Below are positions 13,863 to 55,654 of a stretch of 64,000 nt of DNA, in pieces. Made by a program: the position numbers and the translations under genes. Each line of letters opens with the position of its first letter. The stretch's first letter is position 1. Source of the stretch: Rhynchonema sp. JSB1_4 (lineage: Eukaryota > Nematoda > Chromadorea > Monhysterida > Xyalidae); the NCBI GenBank assembly GCA_030248065.1, contig JASAMV010006793.1:62001-126000 (forward strand), read 5' to 3'. The notes beneath the pieces were generated by a model that had not been told where the DNA came from, searched no databases, and saw only the letters and a program-made list of their open reading frames with translations.

Positions 13863-13923
13863 TGGCTTTGTGATGGCGCGGGTCTCAGCTGCACGCTGAA
13901 ATCATAAGCAGGGCATCTTCAGC

Positions 13924-25503: not shown

Positions 25504-26259
25504 ATGTCGCCGTCTCCCCGGCTGATACTGGAATTTCTGTCGGGCCTGGTCCTGGTCTGCGGCGTGTTGGGACGGGCGAGTGATACTGTATTACCGATTG
25601 CGTCGGTGGAAGGCGGAAGGAAACTGTTCGCCACCGTCAAAGGTGAGCAGAAATTTCAGTCTCAAAGTAATGTTTCAGGTATAAATCGTCAAAAAGAAAG
25701 GATATACGTCACAAATCCAAATTCACTCTCACTTTCAGGCGTCCCAAAGGAGTGGTACTACATTCAAATGACCATCCCGCACGCCAAATGTATATCCGAG
25801 ATCACAGTCGACGCCTTGCAACCGCTGAATGCTGCTGACGACGTGTAGGTTTAAATTAATGAAAACTTTACTTTTTTCCTTGGTTGTGTTTTGCCTGATT
25901 GGTCCCTAATCAAACCATCAGGCATGCACATCAATCAACGGGCATGATAACAAAACTGTCATCAGCGTTCCTATCATGCCAACAAGGCACCTATCGCCAA
26001 CCAGGTTAAATGTCACTCATAATATTCAGATCTCAGGGGAAAGTGCCTTTGGCAGAAAAATGACACGGCAAAGAAAATGACTACAGAAGTGATGATTTCG
26101 GCAGCTCATAAATCTATGTACATGTACAATGACCTGATTTGCAGGCAGATTCTATACAAACCCTGCCACGACACGAACGAGCAAGCGAATTGGCACGTCC
26201 GACATTACAGACATGTGGGCAGCAAATTCACACTGCACGAGCCGATCGTGGCATTACAG
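25504..26259 (+). other. Main protein: signal peptide and N-terminal module
   Basis: Residues 1-120. A hydrophobic stretch within the first 24 residues is followed by a module with WYYIQMTIPHAKC and KPCHDTNEQANWHVRHYRHV, continuing into exon 4 (VSPDNLHIVDLTLEPC). I do not recognise the fold; the regularly placed Cys and beta-like segments suggest an extracellular beta-sandwich. Confidence 0.55.
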
Positions 26260-29200
26260 GTGGGAGAAGGGGTGGTTAGATTTGGAAAGACTGTGGAAAG
26301 TTTGTCGTGGAATGCACGTGAGCCATTTCTAATGGGTTCATCCATTGCAGGTAGCAATTGTATCGCCCGACAACCTTCACATTGTGGACCTGACCCTCGA
26401 GCCTTGCACCAAGCAGGAGGATGCCCTGGTAATCAGGCCTGTGTGCAGACAAGCGATTGTAACGAATACTGACTCGGTCAAACTTGCTGATAATGATGGT
26501 CCATCCAATCAGAACCAACATCAGCAGCTGCTGCAGCCAATCAGCGACAAGCAGACGACGACACGGGCGCCAGCTGACGACTGGAGACGCAAACCGCACA
26601 GACATCGCAAGCACAGGCATCGACTCTATCACCACAAACTGATGCATAAGAAAAACCATGAAACATTATCTCGTATGTACAATAGTGATCAGGGGTCAGA
26701 TCAGAAATCGATATCGACAAACAACCTTGTCGATCAAACAGTCAACAAAAACGATCAGATTGTGAACGATGTGTTGAAACGACTGGCGCATTTGATCGAG
26801 TCGGATCAATCGATAAATCCCCTACATCAATCGGTAATCGATCAGCAAGATAAAAGAGGCAAACGTCAGATCATCGGGGGTACGGTAGCGCAGGATACGG
26901 TATTGCGGTCACGTGACTCGCCGCATCAGGTCGCAAATGAAATTGTGGTACCCGAAGGAGTGGAATTGACGATCGAGCCAGGAGCCGAACTGCGATTCAG
27001 GGCTGGCGCTGGAATGACCATAAAGGGTGAGAGGGAGTGATGATTTGTGATGTTTCAATCGAACACCATGTTATTATATTCCTATTTTCGTTGTGTCTGT
27101 CCGGCTGCATGTCAATATTTTTTGTCTTTATATTTTTGCTTACGAAATTACCACGCAGTGCACAGTTTCGTTGCACTTTCTTCTTGTAATCTGACAATAT
27201 TGGTCCAGAAGTTCTTTCGTTACAAATATATTGCTATATACTAACACTTCCACTATCACGTTCAGGAAAATATTTATACATCCACGTGGATGATTGTTCG
27301 TTTCTAGTTCCGTTGTTGTTTTTTTAGGTTTTCACTGGTCATTGCTAATTACTGTATATTCTGTGTTGATAAAACCGCACATTTCACTCACTAACCATAA
27401 TAACAATAATTGTCGTTAATTGTTGTCTACCTTCTGTTTCTTGCACAGCATAAAATTATTTATAATCAAAATTGTTTCTATAACAACAATTATCACCACT
27501 ACCCTGCACAACAAATCGCACAGTAACCGGCAAAATTCACAAGTATTGCATGATTTACAGAAACACAAAATTTAGTTTGCATGCCCAGGTGTCACGTTGT
27601 TCAATGCGGTCAAAACTGATTAGGTTCAATGATTCCAATTATCACTTTCAATCCCCGGCAGAAGTCCGGAACAAAAAAAACTGAGCCAAAAACCTAAACT
27701 GAGCGCTTGCGCCAATTTTCAATTCCTTCAAATCAGGTCGTTTGGTGGCGCAAGGCTCGCTGCAACATCCAATACATTTCACAGCCTGGAACATCGCCCA
27801 ACCTTGGAGGGGTCTGACGTTTGAGCCAAACTACAAGGCTTATGGTTAGTGGGTGTGTGAAACATCGGCTGGTCATAGAGTGCTTGAATTTTATTGACGT
27901 CTGGGATTATCAGAAGAACAGCAGACACATTTACAGTGCTTCATTTAACGCTTCTCTGAGACAGGACACGGTCACTGCAGTTATATGTGCACGTACTCCT
28001 GTGTAGCTCCAAATATCAAAGTATCCTGCAGACATCCGTCTGTCTCAGTCCCGCATGGGTCTCGAGGGCCACCTAATGATTCACAATGGCTCAGCGTGGC
28101 AATACATGTGTGAAACATCATGGACGTTACAAAGTGCGCATGTGGCTTGCAGACAGATGGGATACCAGTTCGGTTGGTAATCGGCTTTTCCTGTTTGTTA
28201 CAATATGCAGAAACTAATTCTTGCAACATCACCCAGGTGCGCTGTCAACCGAACCCAACGACGAGACCGAACTAGACCCATTGATCGAGGGCATCGACAT
28301 TTCCACAGTCCAAGTGACGTGCAGGGGAACAGAGGACTCGATTGAAGATTGCGGGTATTAACTGTTTTTGCATTTTTATTTTTTGTCTGTGCTTTGTTTA
28401 TTCTTTTTTTCCTTGCTCTTCAGTCCCACGACTCGATCTGGTTGCGGATCGGCCCAGGCCGCGTTTGTGTTGTGTCAAGGCAATGGAGAGGGTATGTAAT
28501 CCATGTTATTCAAACCGGTGTCCTTTTTTTTGTTTTTTGTTGTATTTCTTGGATTGTCAGGCCTGAACCGAGCCATACGTCAAACGCAGCGAGCCTCGAT
28601 GCTGGCATTCATTAATGTGACTGATACTGTCAATGGAATTACGATTACTGGTTGGTGATACATTATTTAATTTAATTGATCGGCAAACATATGACTGGTG
28701 TGTAATTGATGGTCAGGTCCCCAACCACCATCGATGCGTCACGTGATCTCGCAACGCAGTCAACACACGGGTCTCAATCTGCGATTGCACTACGACAAAG
28801 GCAGGAGTGAACTGGGACCGATATTGATCGAAGGTTAGCTTGCATAGCTCTGAATTGATCTTATTATTTTGGTATCACATTTCGTTTAGGTCTACGCACA
28901 GCAACGTGCAAAGGACATGGTCTGCATGTGGACCTGGATTGGCCAACGGAATTGCGTGGAAACGGACAGGTTTGAAATCAACCGTGTTTCATGCATGGCA
29001 TTGTTAAGGTCGATTTATACTTCTGACTTCCGGGAAGTAGAAGTCAAAATCCGGAGAAGTCACTACCACGCAGAAATGCACGGCAAGGCAGTGATTGCTT
29101 GTAGTGATTGCCTGTTCCACTCTGTCCATTGACCGCTGCCTGCCGTCTACTGTTCTTGCTCTGTTAATGAGCTGACCGAACGGGCAGTCACAAATTTCTG

Positions 29201-32200
29201 ACTGCTACTGCCAGGCAGTCAGAGTATAAACCGACCTTAATATTTGAAAGTTTTTGTAAAACTGCTAAACTTTTCAGCCAGAACTAATTCTACACGATGC
29301 AATTGCGGCCAGAAACGAGCGCAGTGGAGTCCAATTGACAGGAAGAGGCCGTGTGGTGCTGAGCGTTAGTTAACCTCGATTTTGTCGTGACTTTCATGCG
29401 TCAAATGTTAACCAATCAGCAAGCCGTACACCCTGATGTTTCAGTATCTACGAGTGTTCCACAATGTTGAGGATGGAGTTCACCTTGCCCAGTCAGGCGG
29501 CAGTGTTCGTATTGAGAATGGTCTGCTGGCTGCCAATTCCAGACATGCACTCAGCGTCGGAAAGCACCAAGCTGCGAAGGTTACGTAAATGTTTTTGGAA
29601 TTCTTTCAAATTGCCTTGCTAAAAAAGCTGGCCAAGAAGGCTTGTTGATCTTGTCATCATCCGTGCAGGAACGACTGACCCTGGTGTTTGAATCATCAAA
29701 TGTGACGGGCCACTGGTGGGGACCAGCCATCGCTGTCGAACCGATGGCAAATTTGGATCTGTACCTGAAGAATTTGAATTTGTGGGAGAATTATAATGGT
29801 TAGTAGTTCTGAATGGTTAAAATTATTGTGGTAATTTTATGCAGTGTGATGGACCACTCCTCAGATTACATGTTTCATGGAAAATGTACATGTGTGCAGA
29901 AGTTAAGTGCCTGCTCCACTAGCTACTACAGTGCAGCACCGACGGTTCCTGAATCGATTTGGGTTCATATTACATCTCCAACAAAATCCCCACAACCACG
30001 TGTTTCAGGCGCAATACTTGTTCGAAACATGTCCAAATCGGCTATGCTTCTCGAAAACTCCAACATCACCCTGAATCGGGGTCGAATAATCGACTTGAAA
30101 CAAGTTGCACCCAAAGGCAACACCGTAACCCTGACAGCAAACCATTTCTCACTGAATCTGCTGACCAATCACACCGACGCGCAGGCAGTGTTGGGAGTGG
30201 GTGTGGATGCGGTAGAAGAAAGCATTGGGAATGGCACAATGATTGAAGTTGGTTATTTCACGGTTTTGTGTTTGTTTTAATGCTGTACAACTCAAACCCA
30301 AACAATTGTAGGCAGGATTGTTTCAAAAAAAAGTGGTTAATTAAAAAATTTTAAAAAAAAAATTTTTTTTTGAAACTCAGATTTTGCTTTTTTTTAATAA
30401 AAAAAGTTGCCCAAAATGGGCTGAAATGTCCAAAAATGGCCTTTTTCGAGGCAAAAAATTGGCACTTTTTAGTGTGGACGGGACAATTTTTCCAAAATCG
30501 CGCCTGCGGCGCCCTGTATTGTCCCCAAATCCGTACTGGGATGCGCGGGGATGGTCTTTTATAGTGATGTGGCACCGATAATGTACCACTGCATGCTACT
30601 ACACATGTATATACATAGGTCTGGTGCAAAACCGGGCGCGCAAAGTCGATCTGACACGCAAGATTTGGGCTGTAATCGATATTTTGATGCTCGTATATCA
30701 GATATACGGCATTAGATGCATTAAAATACATTGTACGGCATGCTACCATACATTAGAGTACATCGTTAGTGAACATCAACCTCAGACTGGTAGGATTCCA
30801 TAGAATCTGCACAATGCTACCGGGTGTCACCACACAAGTTGGGTCTCAGGCGAAAATTTTTCAATTTTTGAAAAATATGTTGCATCGATTTCATTTATCC
30901 TGAAACGTCGTTTGCAACACTTTTTCTAATAAAAAAAATTTTCGTCAAAAAAAAATCAAAAAAAAATTTTTTTTTTTAAAAAAAAGCTCGTTAATAAAAA
31001 AATTTTTTTTCAACCCTGATTGTAGGTAGTTGCTTCTTCAAGCTCACGTGCCTCCGTAACCTGTCATACAAACTAAATGTTCCATATCTTTGATGTTGCC
31101 GGGATGGCAGTGCCGTAATGCAATCATGTTGTTGTGTGACCCTATCTCTCTTTTTGTTGATTTTAGCCCTGACGAGGACACTATTGAGTGTCGAAAATTC
31201 GGCAATACATTCTGTGTATTGTGATTTGGTGCTGTTCGTCTCTCAAAGACACACAACAACTAAATGTTCCAGATTGCAACCAACCAGTTCTACAAGAACA
31301 CAATGCATTCAGTGATAGCGGTCACCGGTGGGGTTCGAACCCCCGACATTCGTGTTCACAGCAATGACATTGTTGCCAACCTCGTACCGATTGCGCTACG
31401 GGCGCACAACTTACAAGAAATGGAAGTGCACAACAACACGTTGTACAATCCTGGCGCTATGTGTGAGCTGAAAGTGGAATCCACACAAAATGGGGTCATA
31501 AATGCAACGTATAATTTCTGGCACGTCAAATCGAAAGTTGAGGTGAGGTTTGAGGACAGCTCAGTCTCCGAAGTGCAATTTTACATTATTTTGTATAGCA
31601 AATTTCGCAATAGTTTTTTTTGCCGGAAAAGTTCGACAGCATTGATCGGTGTGACCTCCATACATGTTTGATCCCTGGAACCCTGCCTGAAACCGTACTC
31701 AGTGCTTGAAAAATGCATCAAAATGACAACAGGAAGCACACGCTCATTTAGTGTTGGCATTTATGTTTTGAATGTGCAGCCGAAAACTATGCTCATGTCT
31801 AAGACAGTCCAATTTAATCACAAACAGCAAATTTCCCACAAGCACAGGTATCTGAGCGTGTGTGCACCCAGGACTCTGCAGCCAATGTACTCACCGACCC
31901 ATTTTTGCATGATCCGTACCAATATCCCACATTGGGACTGGGCGGTTCTGCTGATCTTTCACCAGTGAGCACACAGGGTGAGACTAATCAGTTGGAAGCA
32001 TTCGGAGGACTGATCACAGGTGATTTTGTCTTTTAGTTGTTTGTCTGTTCCACGCGCCTTCAATGGGAATGATAACAAAAAATGCCAGAACATGACCAAT
32101 CTTGGTCTCGACACGAGTCTTTAGATAATCTTGCACTGATATTGAACCATGCTCAGCAACAAAGCGCCGCTGAACGATCAACCGAAATGAATAATCAAGT

Positions 32201-35200
32201 ACATTTATATTTCCCTGCTTTGCAGACCAACACATAGTGCTAACCCCAAGCGGTCAACCCTATCGAGTCACCCAAACGTTGCTGATTGATTCTGATGCAT
32301 CGCTCACCATCGAACCAGGCACAACGCTCGAATTCATGTCAGGAAGGGGTCTCAGGGTCAGAGGTGAGAAATACCCGTTATTTGTTTGGACGAAATTAAT
32401 GAGGAAAGCAAAGAAAAAATATTCTGCATAATTGCCTCTGTTCTTGTTTGCTTCTGCCTGGCCGCCAAATTCTCATGTTCTGAGCTTATGCCCTCACAGC
32501 TTTATGGTGCACAAGAACATCCTCAGTACGATTCGACCAACCAAACTTTTTTTAATTTAGGTCGATTAATAATGCGCGGTACCGAATTGAACCCGATAAT
32601 ATTGTCCAGTGAAAATGGTCAAACGTGGAATGGGGTCATATTCGATAATGTCAATGGTTAGCTGAAAGAGACTTACAGTAACCCAAATACCATAATCCCG
32701 ATTGCGTACATTATGATGTTTCACAGGCTACGCGAGTGACTCGCGTCTTGAGCATGTTGTGATCGATAATGCATTGGATGGCATGCTGATCAATTCGGAG
32801 AAAGTGAGGATTTTTTCAAATTTGAAAAAGCAGGAAATTCTATCCTGATTTTTCAGGTTCAAATATCTAACGTACGAATTGCACGACCGGTCAGGTCTGG
32901 TGTGTTTATCGGCGCGGTCAGTGCGACAAATATCGATTTTGGACGCACAAGGATAACAGGTGATGTTTCACAGCAATGCCCACGTTTAAGCCTAAATCCA
33001 GGTCTAAATCCTGTACCTACAATGCGCAATCCCGTTTCACAGACTCGCACGGCAGCGGCATAACAGTGGCTGAGCGACGACGCGCGATCCGACTGGCTGA
33101 TGTTTCAATTGTGAATACAGCCGACAGCGGTATTGATTTCGAGGGACAGACGGGTGACGTGCACATTACCAACGTTCAGGTGGGAAGCTTTAGTTGGCAA
33201 AAATTTATGCTTAGCTTTTTGTTGAATTGTGCACCTTCGAAACCACAAAATGAGCCGAGAGCCGATACAAAAGAATAGCACCGAGTGGTTTCGATCCACC
33301 GACCTCTGGGTTATGGGCCCAGCACGCTTCCGCTGCGCCACGGTGCTGTGGTTACCTGCTCCGCACATCAATGTGATAAATGTCACAAAAGTGGCTGATG
33401 CAATACAAGAGCACACTGTGCTGTCATTTTTCGGAAATCTGGTAAAGGCAAACCACACCAACACGAGCCCGATTTCGAAGGTGTGTGTATTCAAAACAAT
33501 AGAAAGAGAAAATCAACATCCTCTGCTTTGTATTCTTCAACGTGTAACATTTTCCAAATCAGCAGCCACGTCAGAATGTTTCACTATTCTGCCAGCTGCG
33601 AAATCGGGCTCATGTTGGTGTAGTTTGCCTATATACGTATACGTATATAAAAGAGAATTTTTCACAACATGGCCTTGCTCTTTCAGGCACCATGAGCATA
33701 ATCACGATTTGAACAAAAGCATCACATTGTAATGTAACGATATTATTTTGTTACAGATCTTCGAGCCGAGGCACTTTGGCATCATAATCGGTCATCAGTC
33801 TGTGGCCGTACCCAACATCTTGATAGAAAACAGCCGGATAACAAGGCAGACAAAAGGTTTGCTTTGCGTGCTACATTTTCGTTGCTTTGGCATGAATAAT
33901 TTTAAGACTGGGAAAACAAATTTCAGTCAGTCCCATTTCTCACACACAGGTGTCGCTGGTCTGTCAATCAACATCAACCAATACAAAAGTGTGGTCATAC
34001 GCAACAATACGTTCATTGACAACACCAGACCGAGTGTGGAGGTGTTGTTGCAATGCGATGTGAAACAGGCCTGTAGTCATTTTTGTTGTCGTTACTTGGG
34101 AGCCGTATTAAAGTGTGCATATAGTTCCGGTTTCATGTTTGTTATATCCGAGGAACATTTCTTACGCATATTTTTGTGAATTTGAGAAGCACTGGTGAAG
34201 CTTGCTGTTACGCTATTCTGATCAATTATACTTAGTCCCTAAATTAAGAGAGCCTTCAAAAAAAGGCATCCACAACCAGAAAGCATCAACCGTAACCCAT
34301 CCACACTCACCCAAACCCATTTCCAGTCGGACATCCCCAAGTTCACCTTTTCTGCCAACACCCTTGAGCGCAATGACAATGCAGTGGCAGCTGTATCGCT
34401 GGTGCACTGCGTCAGAGCGGACATCAGTGAAAATCGATGGCTAAATAATAATCCGCATTTCAAGTATGGGGCCTTCAGATTGGTTGGTTTGGTTGGGCAA
34501 CGTTTCACGTTCTGGATAAGCCATTGATGTTTTGTTTTGCCACGTCCAGCACAAAATCCATGACAACCGGTAAACATACGCATGTAACCCAGACGCATAA
34601 ACGTCTCTTGGTGATCAAAAGCATACTCGATCCGATCATTAAGTTTGATATCGCAGCATGCGCTAGTGCGCGTGGGCGTAGGGCGACCAGACGGAAATAA
34701 TGTCCGCCTCACTCCATCCCCAGGTGACCGAGACCGCCAGTGGACAAGGCAGTCGATACCTGATAGCAATATTCGACAACGAGTTCTCCGGCAACAATGG
34801 TGATTATTCGATGTACCTGCAACCAATGACAATGTACGAGTTTCAAGGCAAAGTTCAGGGAAATAAATTTCGCACCAACAGAAATCAACGGACGGTCATG
34901 ATCGTGGGTGCGTTTGGGGTTGGGTACATGACATTGTTTGGGCTCATTAGTGTTGGCCGACCAACGTGGGGCTTTTGCGCTGGTGACTGAAGGCCTGGTT
35001 CTGGTGCACACCTACATACAGTACGTCCCCTGCTGTCCAAGCACAAGATATACACAGAGTGCAACAGGTGCCGAATGGATTGTATAGGCATTTCTTGCAC
35101 TTTTTGCTTCTTCATTTTATGAACGGAATGTCATTCTCCCAGGAAACAGCGACATATAATTTACTAGGGCAAAAATTATGCGTTTTGTAATTGCAAGCCA

Positions 35201-44200: not shown

Positions 44201-47200
44201 GAACACATTTGTCTTATTAATGTTGGTTAAAAACGGTAATGTTTCATCGCTCATATATAAGACGTCACAGTGCCCATAAATTCATGACATGAGGAATTGT
44301 CTCACATGAGGAAAAGACATGAAATATTATTTGGCGAATCTTTCTCAAGGAAAGGTTTTTCAAACAGAAAACATGAAACGAAGACAGTTGTCATTAACAA
44401 AATTGGTCTTGACTGGGGGTGTGTCCAAGATAATTCACCTGATGCACTTTTTCAGTGTTGTGGTGTCTGTCTGACGATCTTTTGTTTTTTACTCACATGT
44501 CATTACAAATGTGCACAGATACGCACACATGCACAAACGTTAACCAGTGAGACGTGCACCTTTTAGTTTGTGTCAGGAAAAGGAACGTCAAAAATTTTCA
44601 TTACCTCAATCTCAAATCTTTCGACCTTGAAACTGTTGATGCTTCACGCAGGGTTTATAAGGCGCAGCGGCGTTCACCGGCAGGCTTACGCTTAAACATC
44701 ACACTAGAGTCCAACCTAAACTCTAGATTTATTCTTTGGCGGGGCTCTCCACAGACTTGGAAGCCTCACATTCACATGAAGCGATATTGTCAGGCTGAAT
44801 CGCCATATTTTGGGTTGCAATAATTGGATGTTGTGGCACTCTGTAACGCATTGATGCATTTTGTATGTTCGAAAAGTGAACTAAGAATTTATAACTGCTC
44901 TGTATCACTCGTCGATTCAATGTTTCAGCCTGCCACGGGTCAAGGCACGATTATTGTGCGCAACAGTGCCACACAACGCGAACTGCGCATACCGTACACC
45001 ATACGCACGCAACAGATCGTGTCCAGACCGGTGCCTCTGAAAGTCCATGTCACCGATGAGCTCACGGGTTCAGCTTTTTTTGCTCACAGATTTTTTTGCA
45101 AAAATTAATTAATTCGAAAATTCAGGTTCGAACGGCGTCCCTCTGGTGGTTGGTGCCGAGGTTCGGCTGACCAGCCCCAGAACCGGATCCTCAGACACGC
45201 AGTTCACAAGCACTGATAACTGTGAGGGTTTTTTAATATGGTGTGTTTGAAACATCAACAGATCACGTTATTTCTCATGATGGGCTTTCAGCGCCTCTAC
45301 TTTTCCATACGGTCCCCGTCGGAGACTACAACCTGGACACAAATTCTGTGAAACATCACCCACACAGTCAGATGATAAGCGTACATGGTGAATGTTATTG
45401 ATTTTTGTTTTTGATTGCAAGCGTGTTCAAATTTAAGATAGTTTTCACCAAATGATAATTTTACAATGAATTTCCTATTTTAGTTGCAAATTAAAATTTC
45501 CACAATTTAGGCGCCCACGACAGCGAGAAGATTATCGAATTGCATCTGATTACCGTGGAGGAAACTGTGCTTTTGCAGAAAAATGCCACCGATAACAAAT
45601 ATGGCGTGGTTGTGCGACGAAAACAGACGCAGGATTTGAAGGTCAGTCGATTGGTGTTTCATTTTCATTTCTGAGTTTCGACTTTCGGTTCACTCAAAAT
45701 TTTTTGGCTTGTTGTCCTAATTATCTTTATAAACAGGGGCAATGTTCCACAGTAAAGTCCAATCTATGTTTCACGCATGCACTAAATTACACACCTGCGA
45801 GAATATGCGAAAAAGCGCATTCTCTCTTTTATTGCATTAAGAAGATTTTTTGAGGGCTCCGCTTTGTTTTTATTGCGGGGCAGTGTACTTTCACTGTCTT
45901 CACCAGCAATCCCAGGTCCTATGTCCACAGCACACCGTGTTCATGTTTCAACATCTTGAAATGGTTGTTTATGCATTCCATGAAATTGCCACACATATAC
46001 AGCCCATAGAAACCACCAAGATTCAATTTAGAGGGGATGACAGGACATGATTTCGAAAGTTTTCCTTGTGTCCTGCTGATATCTATGCAAAATGCTACAA
46101 AGAAAGACAATTTGCAATTGCAACTGGCAAGATTGTTTATAGTTTACTGCTGATGTTTTAGCTCGCCCATAAGGGCACACACACATCATCCGCGGACCAA
46201 CTTCAAACGCTTTTTTCTCGAAAAAGTGATTTTTCCATTTTTTGAGGTCGTTCTGTCATTTTTGGCATCGCGATATCAATGAACTTTGTACGCACCGTGA
46301 ATAACGTCACTTCGTAAACAGACGCCAACTGATGTTTCCTTTCACGCACATTTTTGTTAATGAGATGGCCACCAGCCCTTCTTCATATGAGCGTGCTTCT
46401 TTCTGTTGATAAAAAACAGGACTACGTCCTATGTACTTGATGAAGTTCACAAGTCTAAAGAAACGGCCGTTTGCTGCCTTGTCACAGTACTTACATATGT
46501 GCGGAATTGCGAAAAACGACTATTGTAGTGCGTCACTGCTAGTATCGATTACAACAGTCACCACTGCTGATGATTCAGCTGGGCTATAAGAGAACCTGCA
46601 CCGTAGTTAGTCAACTTCAAACCCGTTTTTCTCGAGAAACGTATTTATTCATTTTTTGCCGTCGTTCTGTCGTTTTTGGCATTGCGGCACTGCTGAGCCT
46701 GGAGTTCACTCCATTTTCATAATTTGTGAGTTTGTAATCAGACAGCAACTGATGTTTTATGCCCTTGATAAAAGATAACAGTTGTACTTCCCTTGGCCAT
46801 TAGGAAGGGTCTTCCATTTTTAGGTGCGTTTGACGAAAGAATAACATCGTTATTTACAGTGCGACTAGCCTGCTAAAATCTGAAAAGTACTTCAGGAAGG
46901 AGTGTTTAGTTTTGTGACCAAGAAAAGTTCTAAAACGGGCCCAAACCACACTCAGTGAACATAAATGTGACAGAAATCTAGCTTCAGCAATGAACTATGT
47001 AAAGTAACACTACGCCAACACGAGCCCGATTTCGGAGCTGGCAAAATGGTGAAACATTCAGACGTGGCTGCTGATTTGGGAAACGTTACACGTTGGGGAA
47101 TACAACGTGGCGCATGATGATTTTCTCTTTCTTTGCGTTTTGCAAGTTCACCACCTCCGAAACCGGGCTCGTGTTGGCGTAGTTTGCCTATACACATGAG

Positions 47201-50200
47201 CGTATGGTAGAGAATCATATTGCCATTTTATTAGTCCTAGGGGATGAACTAAATTACCTTTATGTTTTATAACATGCACAAAACAGGCACAGAACTGACT
47301 CAGTTGATCCCGTGGTGGACAAAAAATTAGAATCGATTCAAAGTGATCGGAAATCTTTCCACTTACAGCCCCACCTGCCCATGATCAGCATAACCACCGC
47401 AGGACATTCGCACCCTTTCGTGTCACCCACCAAGCCATCCACCCAGTTTGTGCTCACAATCCGAAATGATGGCCAGGTTGGGGCGATATTGGTTGAGCTC
47501 GCATTTGAATCGCCGCGCTTACCGTTCAGGGTGGAGCAGAAGGTGGGCGAAGAGCTTCTTCGTTTTAGTGGTTATGAGTTGTTTTATTTACTCGTGTTAT
47601 TTTTTGATCAAAAAAATTCAATATTTTGCCAACAGCCATTATCTAGCATTACTATGTTTACTATTCTTAAAGATTTTTTATTTCAAGACAAAACTGCTCA
47701 TTGTGACAAGCATTGAAATTTTCAGTACGCGGCTGTTTGGAAATATAAGAACATTTTTGGTTGAACTTACAAGTTAAACCATTCGAACTTCTTGAAAAAA
47801 TATGACAAAAATTGAGTTCAAGAAAACTTCAAAAGCACCATTTCACAGTCGCGCATCAGCACCATCCTGCCACCAAACTCCATTTCGGCATTGACAATCA
47901 AAGTTGATCAAAACCCGTTGGCCAATCTGGATGTGACCCAATGTCATTTCTACAAGTTGCCTGTTCCGTACTCGTACCTTGCCAGATCAGGCAAACAACA
48001 GATCAGAAATGCCCTATTGATCGTGCGTAGTGCGCTGATGCTAAAAATGGACGAAATGCCGATCATTTGCGATGGTTGATTTTATTTATTTTGAAACTAC
48101 CGCCGAGATAAACATCCGATTCAACTGTTAACAATGCCATTAGCAACCAGACAAAGCTACACACTTGTTGTCATGGCCAGGGGCGCAGGTACTGGAAGGT
48201 ACCTGATAAACAGACAGTTATCGGAAATAAAAGTCAAAGCGGCGAAAAATTTTTAATAACAAGCTTTTAGTTTTATTCGACGACGGTGGTGCGGTGCGCT
48301 CAGTTGATGTTTCAAGCAACACATACAGTCACTCAACTCTTGCTTGTGATTGTGTGCAGGCACAAAAGCAGGCGTGTGCTGTTGGATACAGGTACATAGG
48401 CCGGTGTTGCAGTTCTTTGGTTTGATTACTTTGCAAAGCACTTCATTTCTTTCTGTTAGCTACTAAACGTTTTCAATGGATCATGGCTGTGACCAATAAT
48501 GAATTTTGGAGTTACGAATTTTGCAAACAAACCATAATTGCCCATTCATTTTAGCAAATTATCATCCTGCGAAAACGCCTACACGCAGTTGGTGCGCTCT
48601 ACACCAGGGCTGGGTGTTCTGTACGGCCTAGTGCATTTCGTGGTGTCCTGCAAACACAGTGGGGTGAACCTGATGGATACATTGGGCGCGTTGAGGTTAC
48701 TGTAGTTGGCTTTGGTTTGTTGGTTCTTGAAGTTAGTATTACCTACAGTTCCGGGTGCAATTCTAGGCTGAAAGTTGAAGTTGCGTGCACGCGGCGTGCA
48801 CGCGCGTGCACGCGACTTCCTAGTGCTAAAACATAGGGAGCGCACGCCAGCGCACGCGCAAAACTTCGCGTGCACGCGCGTGCACGTGCGTGCACGCGCG
48901 TGCACGCGAAGTTACTTCGACTTTTGCCTATACTTTGCACTGTTTCGCACGCGCGTGCACGCGCGTGCACGCGACTTCAACTTTCAGCCTAGAATTGCAC
49001 CCGGTACTGTACATTGGGTGATATTTTCGAAACGGTGTAAAGGTCAGTTGGGTGTAAAGGTCGGTGGAAAGCTCGGTCGACAGCTCAGCGTGATAGACCT
49101 CAGTGTAAACTTGAAACATTCCACGTTAATAAGAGGCAAAGTTTCACGTTTACACCGAGCTACGCCGACCGAGCTTTCGACCGAACTTTACGCCGACCTT
49201 AACGTCCAACTGACCTTTACACCCTTTCGAAAATTCCACCCAATATATCAGTGTGTAAGTACATACCTTACTGTGATCCTCCAAGCCACACCACCAAACA
49301 TATGGACACGGCAGGGGTTGAACCTGCGTCTTCCGGCTGTTCTAACCAACTGAACTACGCGTCCTTCTGACAGGCGGGCTTGAAGGATCTCACATACCTA
49401 TGCAGCACCAAATGACTGCACGAACAAGGTATGCTCACTGACTCCATAACGTGTAACGCACACTGCGTATACACACACAGCCACTCTCAGCGTAACACAC
49501 ACTGACTGCACGGGCTGTAGCACAGGTCAACGGACCACTATCACACCGCCTCCCCTTTTACCGAAGGTTTGGCCTCAAACCGACGCTCTCTGTGAACCAG
49601 CGCAACGTGGCCCACAAGGAATATATACGCACAAATGTACGCAAATCAACTTGTGTCCACACGTAGCGCCACCTCCCCCTCTCAGAAGGTCTGACCCCAG
49701 ACCGGCTCCTTGGCCGTAACTGCGGGTTGGTTCACTTGTCGGGCTCACCATTTGTGATCCTCCAAGCCACACCAAACATTATGGACACGGCAGGGGTTGA
49801 ACCTGCGTCTTCCGGCACCGGCTGTTCTAACCAGCTGAACTACGCGTCCGTCTGGCTGGCGTGCTTGAGCGTGCTCTTATACCTATGCAGCACCAAACGA
49901 CTGCACGAACAAGGTATATAACGTGTAACGCACACTAGCGCGTATACACACACAGCCTCAGTCAGTGTAACACACACTACTTCACGGGCTGTAGCACAGG
50001 TCAACGGATGACCACGATCACACCACCTCCCCTTTTACGAAAGGTTCGGCCTCGAACCGACACTCTCTGTGAACCAGCGCAACGTGGCCCACAAGGAACT
50101 ACGCACAAATGTACGCAAATCAACTTGTGTCCCGTCCACACGTAGCGCCACCTCCCCCTCTCAGAAGGTCTGTCACGTCGGGCTCACCAATTGTGATCCT

Positions 50201-53200
50201 CCAAGCCACACCACCAAACATATGGACACGGCAGGGGTTGAACCTGCGTCTTCCGGCTGTTCTAACCAACTGAACTACGCGTCCTTCTGACAGGCGGGCT
50301 TGAAGTGTGAATTACTAAATGTGAAGTGAACTAGTTTTCCGCTCCTGGGATCACCAGCGGCAAGTTTCACTGATTCGTAGTCCTTGATGACAGCCACTGG
50401 AAGCAACATCAGCCAGCATCATTCCAGATGTCACACTTCCACCAACGAGCTATGCGCGCACGCACACATCGACGTGGCGGACAACGTGGAGCATTTCATG
50501 ACATTGCTGGAAGTCACACAGGATTTGATCAGTCCGTTAAGGTGCGTTTTGGTTCTGATGTTTCAAACTTAAGAATGCTTCGTACATAATCATCCAAATT
50601 TCGTCGCTTCATCCGAACCAAAACAGATCGCACATAAACTTTTTTCAAAGACTGGACTCCCCACCGTCTATCGAGTGGCTGTCCACCTTCCGTGACTGTG
50701 TGTCCGACCTGAGTCCCGGTGGTTTGCATTTGCAACCGAACGAAATCAATCGATTGAGTGCCACGATGAATTACACTGAATTCATTCAAAATTGGAATCT
50801 GCTGGTCGGCGCTGCCACCAAAATGGTTTGAAACTTTTGTTTACTTCAATTTGTTACCAATTTGCTAAGCATAACTGATTGTTCGTCACAAAATTGTCGT
50901 CGCCAGTTTGTGGTTGGCAAAATTGGACACTAAGCCAATTCAAGAGAACTAAGATTTGACCATCTTTTCAGTCCAACAACGCTTCTTTCGACAAAAAGTT
51001 CAACCAGCTGATTCAAGTCCGGCTATTGTTGGATGACATACAAGCAAAATTACCGGTATTATTTCGTTATTTTTTGTGTTCATTATGGCATCGTTTATTT
51101 TTGATGAATTTTGCCGTCCACTGCAGGCCGCCTCACGTTCCATATTATCCTTTCTTGACAATCTAATCCTAAACGATCTGACCGATGCCGCACCTACGGC
51201 TGCAAGCCTAGCCCCAGAACAATGCGCCGACGCTACGGTATCTTTGACACCGTCCCTGATCCAAGAAGGCGGCCAGTTCACCCTAACCTTGGCACTGACC
51301 AATGCGAATGCTGATATTGCACTCAGACGATTTTCGGTTTCCGTGGATTTTGTGCCCACTGACCTTGATGCTGCAAGAGGAATCAACTTTACTCCAGGTT
51401 CGTTGAAAACTTACTTGTTTTCAGTTTTTCAAGTTTAGCAGAGCATTCAGCAATGAGCAGTTTACACCCATTCACCGCACATGACCGGACGGAATATCCG
51501 AATGAAACAAAATTTGAGGGATATTCTGTCCGATTGAAGGGCTGGGATAGTCGTGTCCGTTATCGGCATGCCCATTTGTGAAACATCAGCAGGCATCAGA
51601 CACACGTTAAAACAGCCGAAATCATTTTCATTTACATGTATGTATGTTTAGATCAGCCCCGTCTCACGGGTATCGGATCAATAAACGGTATTGACAACCT
51701 GAGCCCAAGCACCCAAATGACCTCAAAATGGCTGATCCGATCACATATGCCAAATCGATTGACGAAATCATTGGTGTTCGAGGTTTGTCCCTTCATTATA
51801 GTACTTTTCTTGTTTCTGATATTTCGCATGTTTCGCAAAAAGTTTGCGCTCAGTGACATGCAATTGATGTTGCACGGGCGGTATAAACGAAACAACCATG
51901 CCACCAAACGCTCAGAGTTGGCAATTAAAGTTTTTAGTCCAAAATGTGATTTTCTGCCGCGCTCTGATTTTCAGAGTGTCATGGCAGCTGATGAATAAGC
52001 CCCATCTATGGCCATTTTGAGCGATGCTTCCCATTATGCTTTACATAATGGGGACTTATTTGGCATTCTCCAGTAGCAACCTTTTGTCCAATTTAGATTT
52101 TTTGTGAGCTAATGTTTCACGCAAGATATATATTTGCAGACACGGATTTCTGTAACGTTTGCGTTGTCGTCGGGCCGTGATTTCATGACGACGCGCATCA
52201 ACGCGCCGCATTTGACTGTGCTGCCACGCAACGCTGCTAAAATTTTCTACTTTTTGAACAGAAAGGTGCGATCCAGTGATTCTTCATGCTTTTCTATTTT
52301 GATCTGGAATTTTTTCAGGTATAGTCCATCCACCAGCTCATGACACTTTTCGTCAGCTGAAAAGCTTGACAGGATCCAGTGCTGTTTCGGTTCCGGTTCC
52401 GGTCGGCTTACGAAACAGAAAAGAAAGAGAAATCGGTTTTTATTTTATCTTTGTGCACCGTTTTCTCTGACATTGCCTTGCGGATGAACAATTTCTCACA
52501 ACGGAACCTGAACCTCCCAAACAGTGCCATGAGCTGATGGACGGACTATACATTTTCTTTCCACATTTGGTCAGTGTGCGCCAGTAAGTTTGTATGTGGT
52601 TAAATTTCCCAAAATCGTCTGTCGCATGTTGATGAAACCAACAGAGCACGTTCATTTGTTCCAGTTGACACCAACAGACGCCATTCCGTATTCGGCGCGC
52701 GTTGTGCTTGCAAATTCAGGGTACACTCCATTGAAGAATGTACAGTTCGGTCACCCGTCCATTTCCATTCTGCGTCGATTGGGCACATCAACCCTAAGTC
52801 TGCCAGGCGCGGGCCAGCGGCAGAATGTCGAGTACCAAATTGCGAAAATTGAGCCCAGCGGTGGTCTAACACGCACGCTTGAAACATTAGCCAGCGGGCA
52901 GAAAACTAATGTTTCACTGTACATATCACGCATTACGGATGGATATTTTGAGTCGCTGCAATTTTCGCCGTTGGAAAACGGAATGATGTTGAATTTGGAC
53001 CAAAGTGACACTTATTCGGTGGTGAAAACTGGACTGCATGATAACGGCACGCTGGTCACAGATGCAAAAGACGATTTATTATTGTTCGATGAAGCATCAG
53101 CCAGCTTCAAACCTGTCAGCAGGTTCCGGATGGACAGGGTTCGTTTTATTCATTCGTAATTTCCGGGTTTTGGTCAATTTGTGAATATGAATTTTTGGTG

Positions 53201-55654
53201 ACTTTTATTGTGCACCGCCCACAACAAAATAAATAAAATAATCATATGAATTTACCACAAAGTCCCTACTCCTATGTATATTTTCCTCAGGTGCTCAGCG
53301 ACCGTTCAATTAGTCACAAAGGGCTGATGTTTCACGAAATCGCAATGAATCTGCGTTCGACGTCCCTGAGCCAGCAAGGCGGAGGACCAACGGCTGTTTA
53401 TGCGTCACTGCCTACCTTGGCCTTTCAGTTGAATGAAACATTCACATTGACACAGGCCTATAGGGAGGACAATTTGGGACAGGTAACGGGTAGGGTAAAA
53501 CCTTGAAGCCTGTGATTATGCTGAGGCTTCAGGATCTCGAATGAACATTATTGAAAAAGTCATTTAGTACCGGGTTGTGTAAATCCAGACTGACATGAAG
53601 ACAATAGAGTGGTTTCAAATGCTGTCTCGATTCATTTGGTCTTCCTGCAACTGATGCCATAGTCGATATGTGACGATGATCTGTGAGGCACAGCCTGGCT
53701 ACGAACCAAAGTCAATGCAACTCGCTTAGTCGCTCACAATTTTCCATCATTTTATTCAGGCGCACCCGGTTGCGCTCGAAAACTTCTGGCTAACCCGACC
53801 GGACCAACTGCATTTTGTGGACGGTGATGTTTCGCTTGATTTTGCGTCGAGACCCGTCAAATATGTGTTTATTTATGGGTAAATTCTTTTTATGTTTGAT
53901 TTAATTTTTTGAGATATCACTTGAACATCTGATGTTTCAGCCCACCCAATAACCACGAGCCCACTTTCGACAAGGAGTCCTACAGCACCACAGTCAATGA
54001 GAATGCGCTATCCGGCACTCAAATAACGACCGTTCAGGCCTCAGACCAGGATCTGGGATCAAAAGTGGATTACAAACTATTTGGAGGAAGCGGATTATTC
54101 TCCATTGATAGCGAAAAAGGCCAGAAACACTTGAAATATTTGCAGTAAAGCGTTGAGCCTAGCCATCACTTTTCAAATCTTGATTTCAGGCAATGTAAAG
54201 TTGACCAGACCACTGCCAATCACACCGCGTTACTATTGTGTCACACTGGGGGCATACGATAGTGGGTACAAGGTGAATCTTTGATCATTTTGTTGCTTAA
54301 TTTTTCTGAGATGTTGATCAAGCTGAGCTTCTGATGTTTCAGTATCCCAAGTCCACCCTGGTGCCCCTGCTAATACGCATTGAGCCGAGACGTATCCATG
54401 ACAGAACAGATGTATCATGCGAAGCTGTGCAACATCCTAATCCGTTGACAGCACACACGCACTCCTCGGATGGGGATGGGGCTGTGACGGAAAGGTTTGT
54501 TTGGGTAAAACAGAATTTGTCATGCACTAACACCCCTGGTCAAAATGACGATCCGATTTTGCGTGGGACCAGATGAGACCGATATCGATACTGTCCTGTT
54601 TATGCATGCATCCAGTGGGCATGATAACAAGACTGATACACCCAAACCACAATAACCCAACCCATTTGCACCCAGTGTTTCAGTCCCTCCACCCCGAGCA
54701 CCGTGACTCCGTCGGTGCCCACCGATGAGAACATTGACCCGACAGCCGAATCGACGGCCAAACCCGACCCGACCTCTTCAGTTGTGACCCCAACGTCCCA
54801 TTTCACCACCCACAGTCACGGGTTCACCGGGTTACCCGGCTCGAAGGTCACAACGCCTACCGTAACCCCGGTCACCAAGACCGCGGTGGACGTTGATGTT
54901 AGTCAGGTTTGTGAAACATTGTACAGGCATGTGTGAGCGTGTGTGTTTGTGAAGTGTTGTACAGTCCAGCCACGTGCTCATGAGACGACTCTTTTTAAAG
55001 CTTGTTTTGTCAGATTCAAAAATGCGCCGGTTACACGGGTTTTCGCAAACAAAAGAAAGAGATTGGGCCGAGAGACATGATGACAAGTTCCAGCTGGCTG
55101 ACCTCAATTTGTTGCGTGCTTACGCGAACAGCAATGTCGTTCAACACATAAATGTTTTGGGAGTCAAAAGGGAATTTACGCACCGAGGTGGAGAGCGTGT
55201 TTTTAAAAAAATACATGCGTTTCTCTTTCTTTCATTTCCGAAACACGTGGAACCGGAACATTATTGGATCCGTTCAAGTCAACTTCAAAAGTCAAGTCGT
55301 CTCATGAGTTCGTGGTTGGACTATACAGTATTCACGATGGCATGATACACGATCCGGCTATACTGGTCAAAAGGGCAAAAGGGCGTTCAGACTTTCGCAC
55401 ATTTTGGTCAAAATCCAGTGGCCTGTTTATAAGGTTTTTTTGTTCGCACTAACAATGTCCTGGCATACAGGCTGTATTTTTCAGTAATACACAGCACCAG
55501 CAGCTAGTCTAGTGGGCAAAAAAGTGTTGGTCATATTTAATCGAAACTTTTCCAGGTCGATGAGAAGACTTTAGTGGAAATGGCATGCAAATTGCGCGAC
55601 ACGAAACCGATTTGGGGCGTCATTTGTGATCTGAAACGAGTGACTGGCGCTTAA
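25504..55654 (+). CDS. Giant secreted or surface protein: beta-helix, SRCR, EGF, Ig-like and cadherin modules (Bark/Anakonda-like N-terminal half)
   Basis: 65 exons, about 3,317 residues; every junction keeps phase. Exons: 25504-25642, 25739-25844, 26145-26259, 26351-27026, 27737-27844, 28032-28172, 28237-28354, 28424-28491, 28561-28650, 28717-28833, 28890-28969, 29278-29364, 29445-29579, 29669-29798, 29937-30247, 31273-31542, 31848-32019, 32226-32363, 32561-32656, 32727-32803, 32857-32959, 33043-33179, 33757-33856, 33950-34041, 34327-34463, 34741-34907, 35445-35621, 35874-35984, 36462-36589, 36861-36972, 37464-37579, 37658-37841, 38031-38220, 38751-38931, 39139-39204, 39511-39651, 39880-39996, 40222-40357, 42321-42532, 42704-42901, 43168-43254, 43325-43528, 43978-44157, 44929-45067, 45126-45221, 45292-45387, 45511-45641, 47369-47542, 47849-48074, 48144-48198, 48555-48695, 50404-50541, 50651-50825, 50972-51055, 51127-51397, 51652-51782, 52140-52265, 52665-53138, 53291-53482, 53760-53878, 53941-54119, 54190-54272, 54343-54494, 54684-54906, 55556-55654. 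Least certain are the 48.1-50.6 kb exons and the last exon. The start ATG opens a signal peptide (LEFLSGLVLVCGVLG). I see no transmembrane helix near the C-terminus, so secretion is possible. Likely role (inference): extracellular matrix or epithelial junction. Confidence 0.85.
26351..27844 (+). other. Main protein: His/Lys-rich linker, furin-like site and start of beta-helix module 1
   Basis: Exon 4 encodes a low-complexity linker (RRKPHRHRKHRHRLYHHK), then KRGKRQ at about residue 288, a good furin-type cleavage site, then IIGGTVAQDTVLRS and LTIEPGAELRFRAGAGMTI. The L-T-I-E-P-G ... G-x-G pattern starts each right-handed beta-helix unit in Bark-type proteins. Cleavage would release the N-terminal module (inference). 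Confidence 0.7.
28032..28491 (+). other. Main protein: SRCR domain
   Basis: Three exons, residues about 382-491. Scavenger-receptor Cys-rich pattern: DIRLSQSRMGLEGHLMI, AWQYMCETSW, AHVACRQMGYQFG, VQVTCRGTEDSIEDCG, QAAFVLCQG. It sits inside beta-helix module 1, as in Bark/Anakonda repeats. Confidence 0.85.
29004..29240. mobile_element. TTAA-flanked MITE in intron 11
   Basis: TTAA at both ends (29004-29007, 29237-29240), then GGTCGATTTATACTTCTGAC and at the other end AGTCAGAGTATAAACCGACC. The interior has alternating GCAGTGATTGC-type motifs and no gene. Confidence 0.75.
30313..31018. mobile_element. hAT-like element in intron 15
   Basis: Ends CAGGATTG and CAACCCTG (one mismatch), flanked by exact 8-bp duplications ATTGTAGG (30305-30312 and 31019-31026). 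A/T runs of AAAATTTTT lie at both ends. Related by ends and composition to the element at 56,411-57,184. No transposase. Confidence 0.8.
31092..31262. repeat. Dispersed repeat shared with 6440-6530
   Basis: GATGTTGCCGGGATGGCAGT and GTCTCTCAAAGACACACAAC occur here and, rearranged and inverted, at 6440-6530. It ends 10 bp before exon 16 of the main gene. Confidence 0.55.
33276..33347 (-). tRNA. Initiator tRNA-Met (CAT)
   Basis: 72-nt cloverleaf on the minus strand inside an intron of the main gene. Acceptor AGCACCG pairs fully with CGGTGCT, discriminator A. The D arm (GCGCAGCGGAAGCGTGC), anticodon region GGGCCCATAACCC and T loop ATCGAAA carry the hallmarks of eukaryotic initiators: A1:U72 pair, A54 and A60 in the T loop. 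The acceptor stem differs from the usual animal one but is compensated on both sides, so it looks functional. The 3' CCA is not encoded, as expected. Confidence 0.93.
33447..33629. mobile_element. MITE family I in an intron of the main gene
   Basis: Left GGCAAACCACACCAACACGA and right TCATGTTGGTGTAGTTTGCC form terminal inverted repeats; CGAAATCGGGCTC is shared with copies at 13,924 and 47,006. It extends an open frame beyond 33,440, but the exon chain skips this region. Confidence 0.7.
36161..36386. mobile_element. MITE family E, copy 1
   Basis: GGGTGGAATTTTCGAAACGG at the left and its near reverse complement at the right; arms full of GTAAAGGTCGGTGTAAAG. Other copies at 49,013, 59,735 and half at 40,511. 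The loop carries TGAAACAT and ATGTTTCA as an inverted pair. Confidence 0.8.
37134..37376. mobile_element. Palindromic MITE between two EGF exons
   Basis: TATAGTAAATTTCCAAATTC at the left pairs with the reverse complement at 37,357-37,376. The arms continue through GCTGCCGCACAGTGAA and TAACTTGACATT-like segments for about 75 bp. TGAAACAT and ATGTTTCA lie on opposite sides of the centre. Confidence 0.75.
38338..38615. repeat. Short inverted-repeat element in an intron
   Basis: GGTATTGGTCGCACAACGAT ... ATAAGAATT at 38,338-38,372 has an imperfect reverse complement AATTCTTATAAAGTCATTGT ... GACCAATA at 38,583-38,615. Confidence 0.5.
39253..39382. repeat. Short inverted-repeat element in an intron
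   Basis: GGGTTTGGGCTTTGTGG at the left and CCACAAAGCCCAAACCC at the right, about 130 bp in all, between the two halves of an EGF-like repeat. Confidence 0.6.
40511..40594. repeat. Half copy of MITE family E
   Basis: TCTATCACACTGAGCTGTCG through TTTCGAAAATATCACCCA matches the right half of the 36,161 element; the left half is absent. Confidence 0.7.
40631..41178. mobile_element. Fold-back MITE in the largest intron of the main gene
   Basis: AGTGGATGGAATTCACAAA at the left and TTTGTGAATTCCACCCACT at the right. The arms continue with TTCAAGTTCACCGTCAA and GATGTTTCGGCTGACGC on the left, mirrored at 41,100-41,150. No gene inside. Confidence 0.7.
46199..46750. repeat. Direct duplication of about 140 bp
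   Basis: ACTTCAAACGCTTTTTTCTC (46,199) through CAACTGATGTTTC (about 46,340) recurs in diverged form at 46,612-46,750, spaced about 413 bp. Confidence 0.55.
47006..47188. mobile_element. MITE family I, third copy
   Basis: ACTACGCCAACACGAGCCCG at the left and CGGGCTCGTGTTGGCGTAGT at the right. The interior is the reverse complement of the 33,447 element. Confidence 0.7.
48746..49009. mobile_element. TA-flanked GTGCACGC palindromic MITE, second copy
   Basis: Opposite orientation to the copy at 19,332-19,605, with nearly identical internal order. Bounded by TA (48,744-48,745 and 49,010-49,011) and directly followed by a family E element. Confidence 0.8.
49013..49241. mobile_element. MITE family E, copy at 49 kb
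   Basis: GGGTGATATTTTCGAAACGG ... TTCGAAAATTCCACCC, the same arms as the 36,161 and 59,735 copies. It abuts the GTGCACGC element with only 3-4 bp between them. Confidence 0.8.
49303..49364 (-). pseudogene. tRNA-like sequence without anticodon arm, copy 1
   Basis: Acceptor GGACGCG pairs with CGTGTCC (one G-T), D arm GTTCAGTTGGTTAGAAC (A box) and T arm GCAGGTTCAACCCCTGC (B box) are intact, but only 11 bases remain between them, too few for an anticodon stem-loop. Probably a Pol III-promoter fragment or SINE head. Confidence 0.65.
49782..49849 (-). pseudogene. tRNA-like sequence without normal anticodon arm, copy 2
   Basis: Same acceptor, D and T arms as copy 1. The middle is six bases longer (GCCGGTGCCGGAAGAC) and could form a tiny CCGG/CCGG hairpin, but not a 5-bp stem with a 7-base loop. 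Confidence 0.65.
50223..50284 (-). pseudogene. tRNA-like sequence without anticodon arm, copy 3
   Basis: Identical in layout to copy 1; the surrounding 110 bp are almost the same. Confidence 0.65.
52320..52550. mobile_element. MITE family G, copy 2
   Basis: TATAGTCCATCCACCAGCTC ... GAGCTGATGGACGGACTATA, close to the 23,097 copy, in the intron before the largest 3' exon of the main gene. Confidence 0.82.
53941..54272 (+). other. Main protein: cadherin-like repeat
   Basis: Exons 62-63. PPNNHEPTFDKESYSTT followed by VNENALSGTQITTVQASDQD, then FSIDSEKGNVKLTRPL and YYCVTLGAYDSG, the order of the cadherin calcium-binding motifs (E, DxD, ID..TG, A-x-D). The usual LDRE is replaced by RPLPITPR, so calcium binding may be weakened. 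The two exons join across an apparent GC-AG intron at 54,120-54,189. Confidence 0.7.
54343..55654 (+). other. Main protein: Ser/Thr/Pro-rich tail and C-terminus
   Basis: A Thr/Ser/Pro-rich mucin-like stretch (STPSTVTPSVPTDEN, TPTVTPVTKTAVDVDVSQ) is followed by a short last exon VDEKTLVEMACKLRDTKP...KRVTGA and a stop at 55,652-55,654. I see no membrane anchor. The last exon is joined on phase and splice site only; it does not read like an extracellular domain. Confidence 0.55.
54959..55326. mobile_element. MITE family G-like element in the last intron
   Basis: GTACAGTCCAGCCACGTGCTCATGA-type left end pairs with CTCATGAGTTCGTGGTTGGACTATA-type right end. The interior has an exon-like frame (ERDWAERHDDKFQLADLNLL) that does not fit the phase of the main gene. 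Confidence 0.6.

Follow-up and report, generated by a model that had tools for sequence, protein, structure and literature searches.

The closest described counterparts of the word analysed here are promoter elements of nematode snRNA and piRNA genes. In C. elegans, the proximal sequence element (PSE) of snRNA genes is described as comprising two sub-motifs, PSEA and PSEB, with 5 bp between them (PMC2527325). According to another paper, the SNAPc motif has a half with GTTTC, and it is from this half that the nematode piRNA motif, located 42 nt upstream of the 21U, is derived (PMC6436959). The same paper reports Piwi outside clade V only from plectids, in which the promoters of piRNAs hardly differ from those of snRNAs, and gives 3,082 bipartite sites by motif scan for Plectus murrayi; it places the dispersed piRNAs of Pristionchus-type species in introns of active genes (97% of intragenic piRNA loci are intronic in P. 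pacificus), and describes SNPC-4 across C. elegans piRNA regions, with no enrichment detected at the starts (PMC6436959). In the Ruby motif, which belongs to the type I piRNA genes of C. elegans, the core CTGTTTCA differs from the word considered here, ATGTTTCA, in the first base alone (PMC4015492, PMC9683057).

The likeness to the Ruby motif thus covers all but 1 of 8 bases, and it extends to a host nematode with PIWI, to many thousand short copies, and to a motif held to derive from the GTTTC-bearing SNAPc half. However, ATGTTTCA is not confined to clusters, occurs also in exons, is present in far more copies, and lacks the AT-rich spacer, and no YRNT start signal was found for it. With the bipartite SNAPc-like motif of Plectus sambesii and P. 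murrayi, likened here by its published description and not by its letters, the word shares the near identity of piRNA-type and snRNA motifs, the dispersed arrangement, and GTTTC; Plectus has an extra 5' half and, in P. murrayi, 3,082 sites, whereas here only a half is found, in about 94,000 copies. Over-represented words are also known from bacteria, namely HIP1, DNA-uptake sequences, and Chi. These are likewise sharp short words spread over coding and non-coding DNA, but the present one belongs to a eukaryote and is tied to a promoter element. The letters of the decamer were searched in the literature and the matches listed were unrelated by title; no report of such a genome-wide word was found among the matches listed in this and further searches of open-licence PubMed Central papers. 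While a SNAPc-derived piRNA motif is already known, the copy number, the half-element form, the exonic copies, and the missing start signal would, if confirmed, be new.

Copy number and form of the word

The window, i.e., the whole 64-kb stretch of DNA that was analysed, contains 62 exact copies of ATGTTTCA/TGAAACAT on its two strands, compared with a mean of 5.7 and a maximum of 11 in dinucleotide shuffles of the window (n = 100). Markov models fitted to the window give expectations of 5.7 (order 2), 7.2 (order 3), and 10.4 (order 4) copies; the values of 22.9 at order 5 and 46.3 at order 6 are high because those models absorb the word itself. The fourth-order model of the window fails to predict 62 (the earlier note had named a model of this order for the genome), and together with the shuffles it rules out chance or composition as the source of the word. 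Within the gene at 25,504-55,000, 47 copies were counted (31 on the plus and 16 on the minus strand), with 12 upstream of 25,504 and 3 past 55,000, which agrees with the roughly 48, 12, and 3 copies claimed before; each of the 17 coordinates listed at that time is correct within 3 bases. The random expectation of 0.9 per 29.5 kb was too low, as 5.7 per window corresponds to about 2.6. The gene limits below are those of the earlier note, and an ORF has its start Met at about that position, 25,504; the copies come from the exact-word scan.

Gene and copies within it (position, strand, feature):
25504..55000, plus, gene body with SRCR/EGF/right-handed beta-helix/cadherin exons (profile matches), 47 of the 62 copies
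25670..25677, plus, ATGTTTCA
26659..26666, minus, ATGTTTCA
27050..27057, plus, TGATGTTTCA
27858..27865, minus, CGATGTTTCA
28111..28118, minus, TGATGTTTCA in SRCR exon (Pfam SRCR E 2.2e-8)
29436..29443, plus, TGATGTTTCA, probable exon (MFQ), by eye
29870..29877, plus, ATGTTTCA
32716..32723, plus, TGATGTTTCA
32963..32970, plus, TGATGTTTCA, probable exon (GDVS), by eye
33100..33107, plus, TGATGTTTCA, probable exon (ADVS), by eye; no Pfam match; similar stretch in L012
33576..33583, plus, GAATGTTTCA in dispersed repeat
36029..36036, plus, GAATGTTTCA
36256..36263, minus, left copy of outward-facing pair in palindromic repeat
36283..36290, plus, right copy, paired with 36256..36263 in palindromic repeat
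36984..36991, minus, TGATGTTTCA
37216..37223, minus, left copy of second outward-facing pair (repeat common to L016)
37276..37283, plus, right copy, paired with 37216..37223
37543..37550, plus, AGATGTTTCA in EGF exon (CRCF), EGF E 7e-8
37723..37730, plus, AGATGTTTCA in EGF exon (CRCF), EGF_2 E 3.3e-4, 21.4 bits, just below the cut-off of 22.1
40203..40210, minus, TGATGTTTCA
40378..40385, plus, CGATGTTTCA
41108..41115, minus, AGATGTTTCA
41315..41322, plus, TAATGTTTCA
41832..41839, plus, CGATGTTTCA
42329..42336, plus, TGATGTTTCA, probable exon (VMFH), by eye; no Pfam match
42688..42695, plus, TAATGTTTCA
43042..43049, plus, CAATGTTTCA
43856..43863, plus, TGATGTTTCA
44239..44246, plus, TAATGTTTCA
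44920..44927, plus, CAATGTTTCA
45248..45255, minus, TGATGTTTCA
45349..45356, minus, TGATGTTTCA
45766..45773, plus, ATGTTTCA
45943..45950, plus, ATGTTTCA
47050..47057, minus, GAATGTTTCA in dispersed repeat
48307..48314, plus, TGATGTTTCA
49112..49119, minus, single copy in palindromic repeat, partner word differs
50558..50565, plus, TGATGTTTCA
51579..51586, minus, TGATGTTTCA
52112..52119, plus, TAATGTTTCA
52880..52887, minus, TAATGTTTCA, probable exon (ETL), by eye; no Pfam match
52909..52916, plus, TAATGTTTCA, probable exon (NVS), by eye; no Pfam match
53327..53334, plus, TGATGTTTCA, probable exon (MFH), by eye; no Pfam match
53434..53441, minus, GAATGTTTCA
53932..53939, plus, TGATGTTTCA
54334..54341, plus, TGATGTTTCA, probable exon (MFQ), by eye; no Pfam match
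54912..54919, minus, CAATGTTTCA

Copies in the window outside the gene:
492..499, minus, ATGTTTCA
531..538, minus, ATGTTTCA
11932..11939, plus, ATGTTTCA
12017..12024, plus, TGATGTTTCA
13220..13227, plus, ATGTTTCA
13603..13610, minus, copy in local inverted repeat
13726..13733, plus, copy in local inverted repeat
13958..13965, plus, copy in dispersed repeat
14376..14383, minus, TGATGTTTCA
14930..14937, plus, CGATGTTTCA
19168..19175, plus, ATGTTTCA
24257..24264, plus, TAATGTTTCA
57526..57533, minus, TGATGTTTCA
59828..59835, minus, left copy of palindromic repeat pair
59855..59862, plus, right copy, paired with 59828..59835

The abundance of the word is a feature of the whole genome and not peculiar to this gene. 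Across the assembly (203.9 Mb, 5,747 contigs), ATGTTTCA occurs 46,953 + 46,872 = 93,825 times on the two strands, compared with 4,310 + 4,401 = 8,711 for the reversed word, and the form TGATGTTTCA 18,829 + 18,727 = 37,556 times, compared with 172 + 173 = 345. A 264-kb sample, composed of the window and twenty further stretches of 10 kb each from its assembly (picked by hand on contigs from previous hit lists and non-random, which leaves the whole-assembly counts unaffected, as these are independent of them), holds 152 copies of ATGTTTCA where 22.5 are expected and 70 of TGATGTTTCA where 1.7 are expected. The word was found in 19 of the 20 stretches, at 0-12 copies per 10 kb (mean 4.5, variance 10.4). 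The two loci of mitochondrial DNA (7.5 kb, with overlaps counted in) contain no ATGTTTCA. The whole-assembly counts and the densities of the stretches therefore show a genome property, of which the gene at 25,504-55,000, with 1.6 copies per kb (47 in 29.5 kb) against 0.46 per kb genome-wide, is a dense spot.

The word is sharply defined. In the 264-kb sample, the 24 one-base variants of ATGTTTCA occur at about 0.6-1.6 times expectation, and the canonical CTGTTTCA, at 26 copies versus 22.1 expected, was rejected as the word of this genome. The earlier statement that one-base variants recur is unsupported because all 24 are near expectation, and such variants were rejected; the two 9-letter examples given for it, tested only as the octamers ATGCTTCA and ATGTTTCG, occur 15 times versus 10.4 expected and 23 times versus 16.7 expected in the same sample. 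The preceding base is G or A at 58 of the 62 window copies, as had been noticed, but the following base, described as C, A, or G, is C at 26, A at 15, T at 12, and G at 9. Base by base, 156 TGATGTTTCA sites have weak preferences for G at -14 and -6, T at -8, C at -5, and T/C at -4, then for G at -2 and C/G at -1 next to the word, and for C then A after it; past +11, no downstream position of these sites exceeds a |z| of about 3. A search for a second motif, upstream or downstream, by k-mer enrichment gave only scattered small excesses. The dispersed element is T(G/A)ATGTTTCA; its flanks, G C Y. G S on the left and C A on the right, are weak. In self-alignments, the motif was kept in 182 of 206 cases, with 74 expected from flank identity, and control words in 1,374 of 2,783, with 1,149 expected; this retention is not used as a proof of selection because a few repeat families dominate it.

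Exonic copies and repeats

The gene at 25,504-55,000 is large and multi-domain, with SRCR, right-handed beta-helix, EGF/teneurin-like, and cadherin regions, a make-up that we take to recall the insect protein bark beetle. Its composite protein (first 1,832 of 3,249 residues, region 180-1800) matched 0 of 4,906 candidates at E 0.001. Four tRNA matches lie antisense within it on the minus strand (33,276-33,347; 49,303-49,364; 49,782-49,849; 50,223-50,284), three of them within 1 kb of each other. Three copies of the word are located in exons with Pfam matches and 8 more in exons that are probable by eye, and the exonic copies are read in several frames. The position of copies within the Pfam-supported exons at 28,111 (SRCR) and at 37,543 and 37,723 (EGF) bears out the proposal that the constraint acts on the level of DNA and not of protein. 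From these 3 and 8 copies, our impression is that exon and intron densities are alike. It is extremely improbable that the word is a compositional or splicing word, or that it results from codon bias or nucleosome phasing. A few copies overlap the acceptor-like TTTCAG, as the earlier note had it, and sense copies in the gene outnumber antisense ones, 31 to 16; however, the order-4 Markov model fails, the one-base variants are unenriched, one copy in three within the gene runs antisense, and the exonic ones fall in several frames. The splicing word was rejected.

Some repeat families carry the word. Grouping by flank similarity placed 31 of the 152 sites of the 264-kb sample in 11 groups. The largest of them is a palindromic repeat in which two copies, at a distance of 27 bp, face outward, TGAAACAT-N19-ATGTTTCA; it is present in the window at 36,256-36,290 and 59,828-59,862 and also in L011, L014, L033, L034, and L007. 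Another repeat, apparently unrelated, has an outward-facing pair at 37,216-37,283 of the window and at 8,910-8,977 of L016. Minisatellites with a ACCCAATACCAAT-like unit, together with clusters of the decamer CGCGTGCACG, are located at 8,003-9,215, 19,368-19,569, and 48,783-48,973 of the window. The existence of word-bearing families is what speaks for the view that the copies are carried by mobile elements, namely the palindromic repeats that have outward-facing pairs, and by what is left of such elements after decay, a view that we nonetheless consider very improbable. No recognised repeat group was found for 121 of the 152 sampled copies, although a 264-kb sample misses low-copy families, and almost no flanking sequence is common to the copies: most of those in the sample and in additional short stretches were not found to have anything in common outside the word. 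Moreover, decay should leave one-base variants, none of which is in excess, and the exonic copies sit in conserved domains. A single dispersed transposon family, which the earlier note had named as a refuting result, was rejected for the sample on the grouping of its sites. Mobile elements may be using the promoter word.

Relation to the snRNA promoters

The genome's own snRNA genes are preceded by a SNAPc-type PSE, and the word is its core. Upstream stretches of 115 bp were taken for 10 of 10 U1 matches, 8 of 8 U5 matches, 5 of 9 U6 matches (the other four being below the gathering score), and 7 scored U2 loci (9 matches, 8 loci fetched, 1 left out as its start was not located); positions tell where the ten-letter form begins, counted from the base at which the Rfam match starts. 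T(T/G)ATGTTTCA starts at -44/-45 in 7 of the 10 U1 upstreams; two of the three without the word are near-identical, as are two of the seven with it. An element is located at -45/-46 in all 8 U5 upstreams (ATGTTTCA in 1, ATGTTACA in 7) and at -47/-48 in all 7 scored U2 upstreams (ATGTTTCA in 1, ATGTTTTA in 1, AYGTGACA in 5), while 4 of the 5 U6 upstreams have ATGCTACA at -56 and, closer to the start, a GATAAAAG stretch. A matrix built from 159 dispersed TGATGTTTCA sites alone picked the snRNA positions in 26 of 30 upstreams at a shuffle p <=0.03 (300 shuffles per upstream); these are not 30 independent cases, because several upstreams are near-identical, and a significant matrix match is absent in 3 of 10 U1 and 1 of 5 U6 upstreams. 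By eye, the dispersed flanks (-6 G, -5 C, -4 T/C, -2 G, -1 S) resemble the leads GGCT, GGC, and GCAGC of the snRNA words.

The two elements are not identical. Many snRNA elements run on into a second half, GANNGACTACCC, which the base profile does not show next to the dispersed copies, so that the complete bipartite element is not carried by them; GAATGACTACCC/GATAGACTACCC has 0 occurrences in the 264-kb sample. In addition, the exact word occurs 9 times upstream of snRNA genes, and 7 of these have TTATGTTTCA, a form that is not enriched among the dispersed copies of that sample (0 versus 1.2 expected). The U1 upstream L136 contains TGATGTTTCA and has a TATAAAGG stretch where most others carry the second PSE half. 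Compared with the snRNA PSE, known in C. elegans as PSEA/PSEB, the same or a near word is thus found at -44 to -48 of the genome's own U1, U2, and U5 and at -56 of U6, but many snRNA elements reach GANNGACTACCC and their exact words are mostly TTATG.., and the dispersed copies show neither; a fixed position before snRNA starts is found for the PSE, in the snRNA copies only. The missing GANNGACTACCC and the TTATGTTTCA preference therefore indicate that the dispersed word is a half, in slightly different form, of the genome's own PSE.

That the dispersed copies are putative SNAPc-family sites is well supported by this comparison of sequences. Another DNA-binding protein could in principle use the word genome-wide and also activate the snRNA genes, with SNAPc not at the dispersed sites. 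The difference between the dispersed form TGATGTTTCA and the snRNA forms TTATGTTTCA, TGATGTTACA, and TGATGTGACA, and the missing second PSE half, would fit such a protein; the PSE-like fixed position in U1, U5, and U2, as well as the move to -56 in U6, where GATAAAAG is closer to the start, make it improbable. The earlier note was right in proposing a genome-wide DNA motif that is neither protein-driven nor one repeat. Its functional guesses (chromosome pairing, dosage compensation, replication, anchoring, nucleosome, or splicing) omit the core of the snRNA PSE, to which the evidence points.

PIWI in the host and the role of the dispersed copies

The nematode cuticle-collagen N-terminal domain has 57 matches in the assembly and none in 14 prokaryote control genomes, and COX1, presumably nematode-like as judged by eye, reads through with TGA as tryptophan. 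A search of the assembly for SL1 RNA gave no match, by a method that cannot show absence. The DNA was read for part of the 54 Piwi-domain exon matches, and most of these belong, by eye, to Argonaute or worm-specific clades. An exon of locus C4595 (L070, L071) has a best Protein Data Bank match of 56.9 bits to Piwi versus 26.4 to the best Argonaute, and a second exon 38.0 versus 23.4 bits; on the comparison of these two exons, the genome encodes a predicted PIWI-clade protein. Loci C1663 and C3368 match the same Piwi profile ranges as C4595; they may have arisen by recent duplication, as paralogues, or represent uncollapsed alleles. The exon stretch L070 contains one copy of the word. The Argonaute loci are not rich in it (6 in 18.3 kb).

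The published account of SNAPc-derived piRNA promoters (PMC6436959) makes a Ruby-type promoter the most likely reading here. ATGTTTCA is an over-represented 8-nt core ending in TGTTTCA, it is akin to the SNAPc/snRNA element, and the predicted PIWI-clade protein accompanies it, as in Ruby-type genomes. The word is probably this species' version of the nematode piRNA-making signal; more specifically, and tentatively, it can be read as a dispersed half-element of the Ruby-type ("Pristionchus-type") piRNA promoter motif. It is proposed that half of the snRNA PSE would have spread tens of thousands of times through the genome and that the dispersed copies would be bound by SNAPc or a derivative. 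By analogy with the known systems, we infer that piRNAs may be produced from these copies. The start sites would be used opportunistically and not be selected singly, which would explain the missing start signal.

The downstream sequence was analysed for such a signal. At 156-157 TGATGTTTCA sites (184 with the TA/CG forms), YRNT was not found to be enriched where a start would be expected, with its T roughly 40-50 nt after the word. Mixture fits for YRNT at 157 TGATGTTTCA sites, with centres of 41-49, gave a fraction of 0-0.01 with upper 95% limits of 0.04-0.16, which vary with centre and spread, the start being placed by the snRNA genes. The best YRNT fit (centre 31, fraction 0.11) has a log-likelihood gain of 2.6 among 70 centres and was not taken as a signal. 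The looser T-only test at the 157 sites gave fits of 0-0.11 and upper limits of 0.16-0.34, so a minority of sites with starts is possible; the T frequency at +47 is 0.24. There is no AT-rich spacer, with a GC of 0.43-0.51 in every downstream 5-nt bin to +120. Further observations stand against the piRNA reading: at least 3 copies are located in Pfam-matched exons, unlike the mostly intronic loci of P. pacificus, and the copies are about 30 times the 3,082 P. murrayi sites, the two not being counted alike. The same holds for the TTATGTTTCA preference and the second half of the snRNA elements, the lack of enrichment of CTGTTTCA, the ordinary density in the Argonaute loci, and the 3 U1 and 1 U6 upstreams that have no significant match.

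It is conceivable, though unlikely, that the SNAPc family occupies the sites without productive small-RNA starts, and that the word marks or organises gene chromatin and is selected for binding alone, for example in germline licensing or in the coating of domains as by SNPC-4 in C. elegans. SNPC-4 covers C. elegans piRNA regions without enrichment detected at the starts (PMC6436959). Occupancy without starts would also suit the lack of a detected initiator or downstream motif, the presence of copies in exons and introns alike, the very sharp core with weak flanks, and the tie to the snRNA PSE. Against it, the density of the word is not raised in the Argonaute loci mentioned above, and 157 sites leave room for starts at a minority. 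We also know of no precedent for a genome-wide SNAPc mark, which counts against it as well. That half an snRNA promoter element serves as a genome-wide occupancy code, selected for binding and not for transcription start, as a germline self-mark that licenses or organises genes, appears doubtful to us; such a code would comprise, with equal doubt, some 80,000 SNAPc-family sites (93,825 less roughly 9,000-17,000 expected) in introns and exons. Returning to the Ruby-type promoter, either its starts are not selected singly, which we tentatively favour, or, less probably, the sites act by being bound.

On the current view, nematodes recruited their piRNA promoters from those of snRNA genes, and this genome, with tens of thousands of almost perfect half copies that reach into exons, would, if the reading is true, be the extreme case. 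It would then be possible to test in it whether piRNAs can be made from SNAPc-type sites and nothing else, how a constraint on the DNA level coexists with coding sequence, and whether SNAPc-type sites may act as a self-mark.
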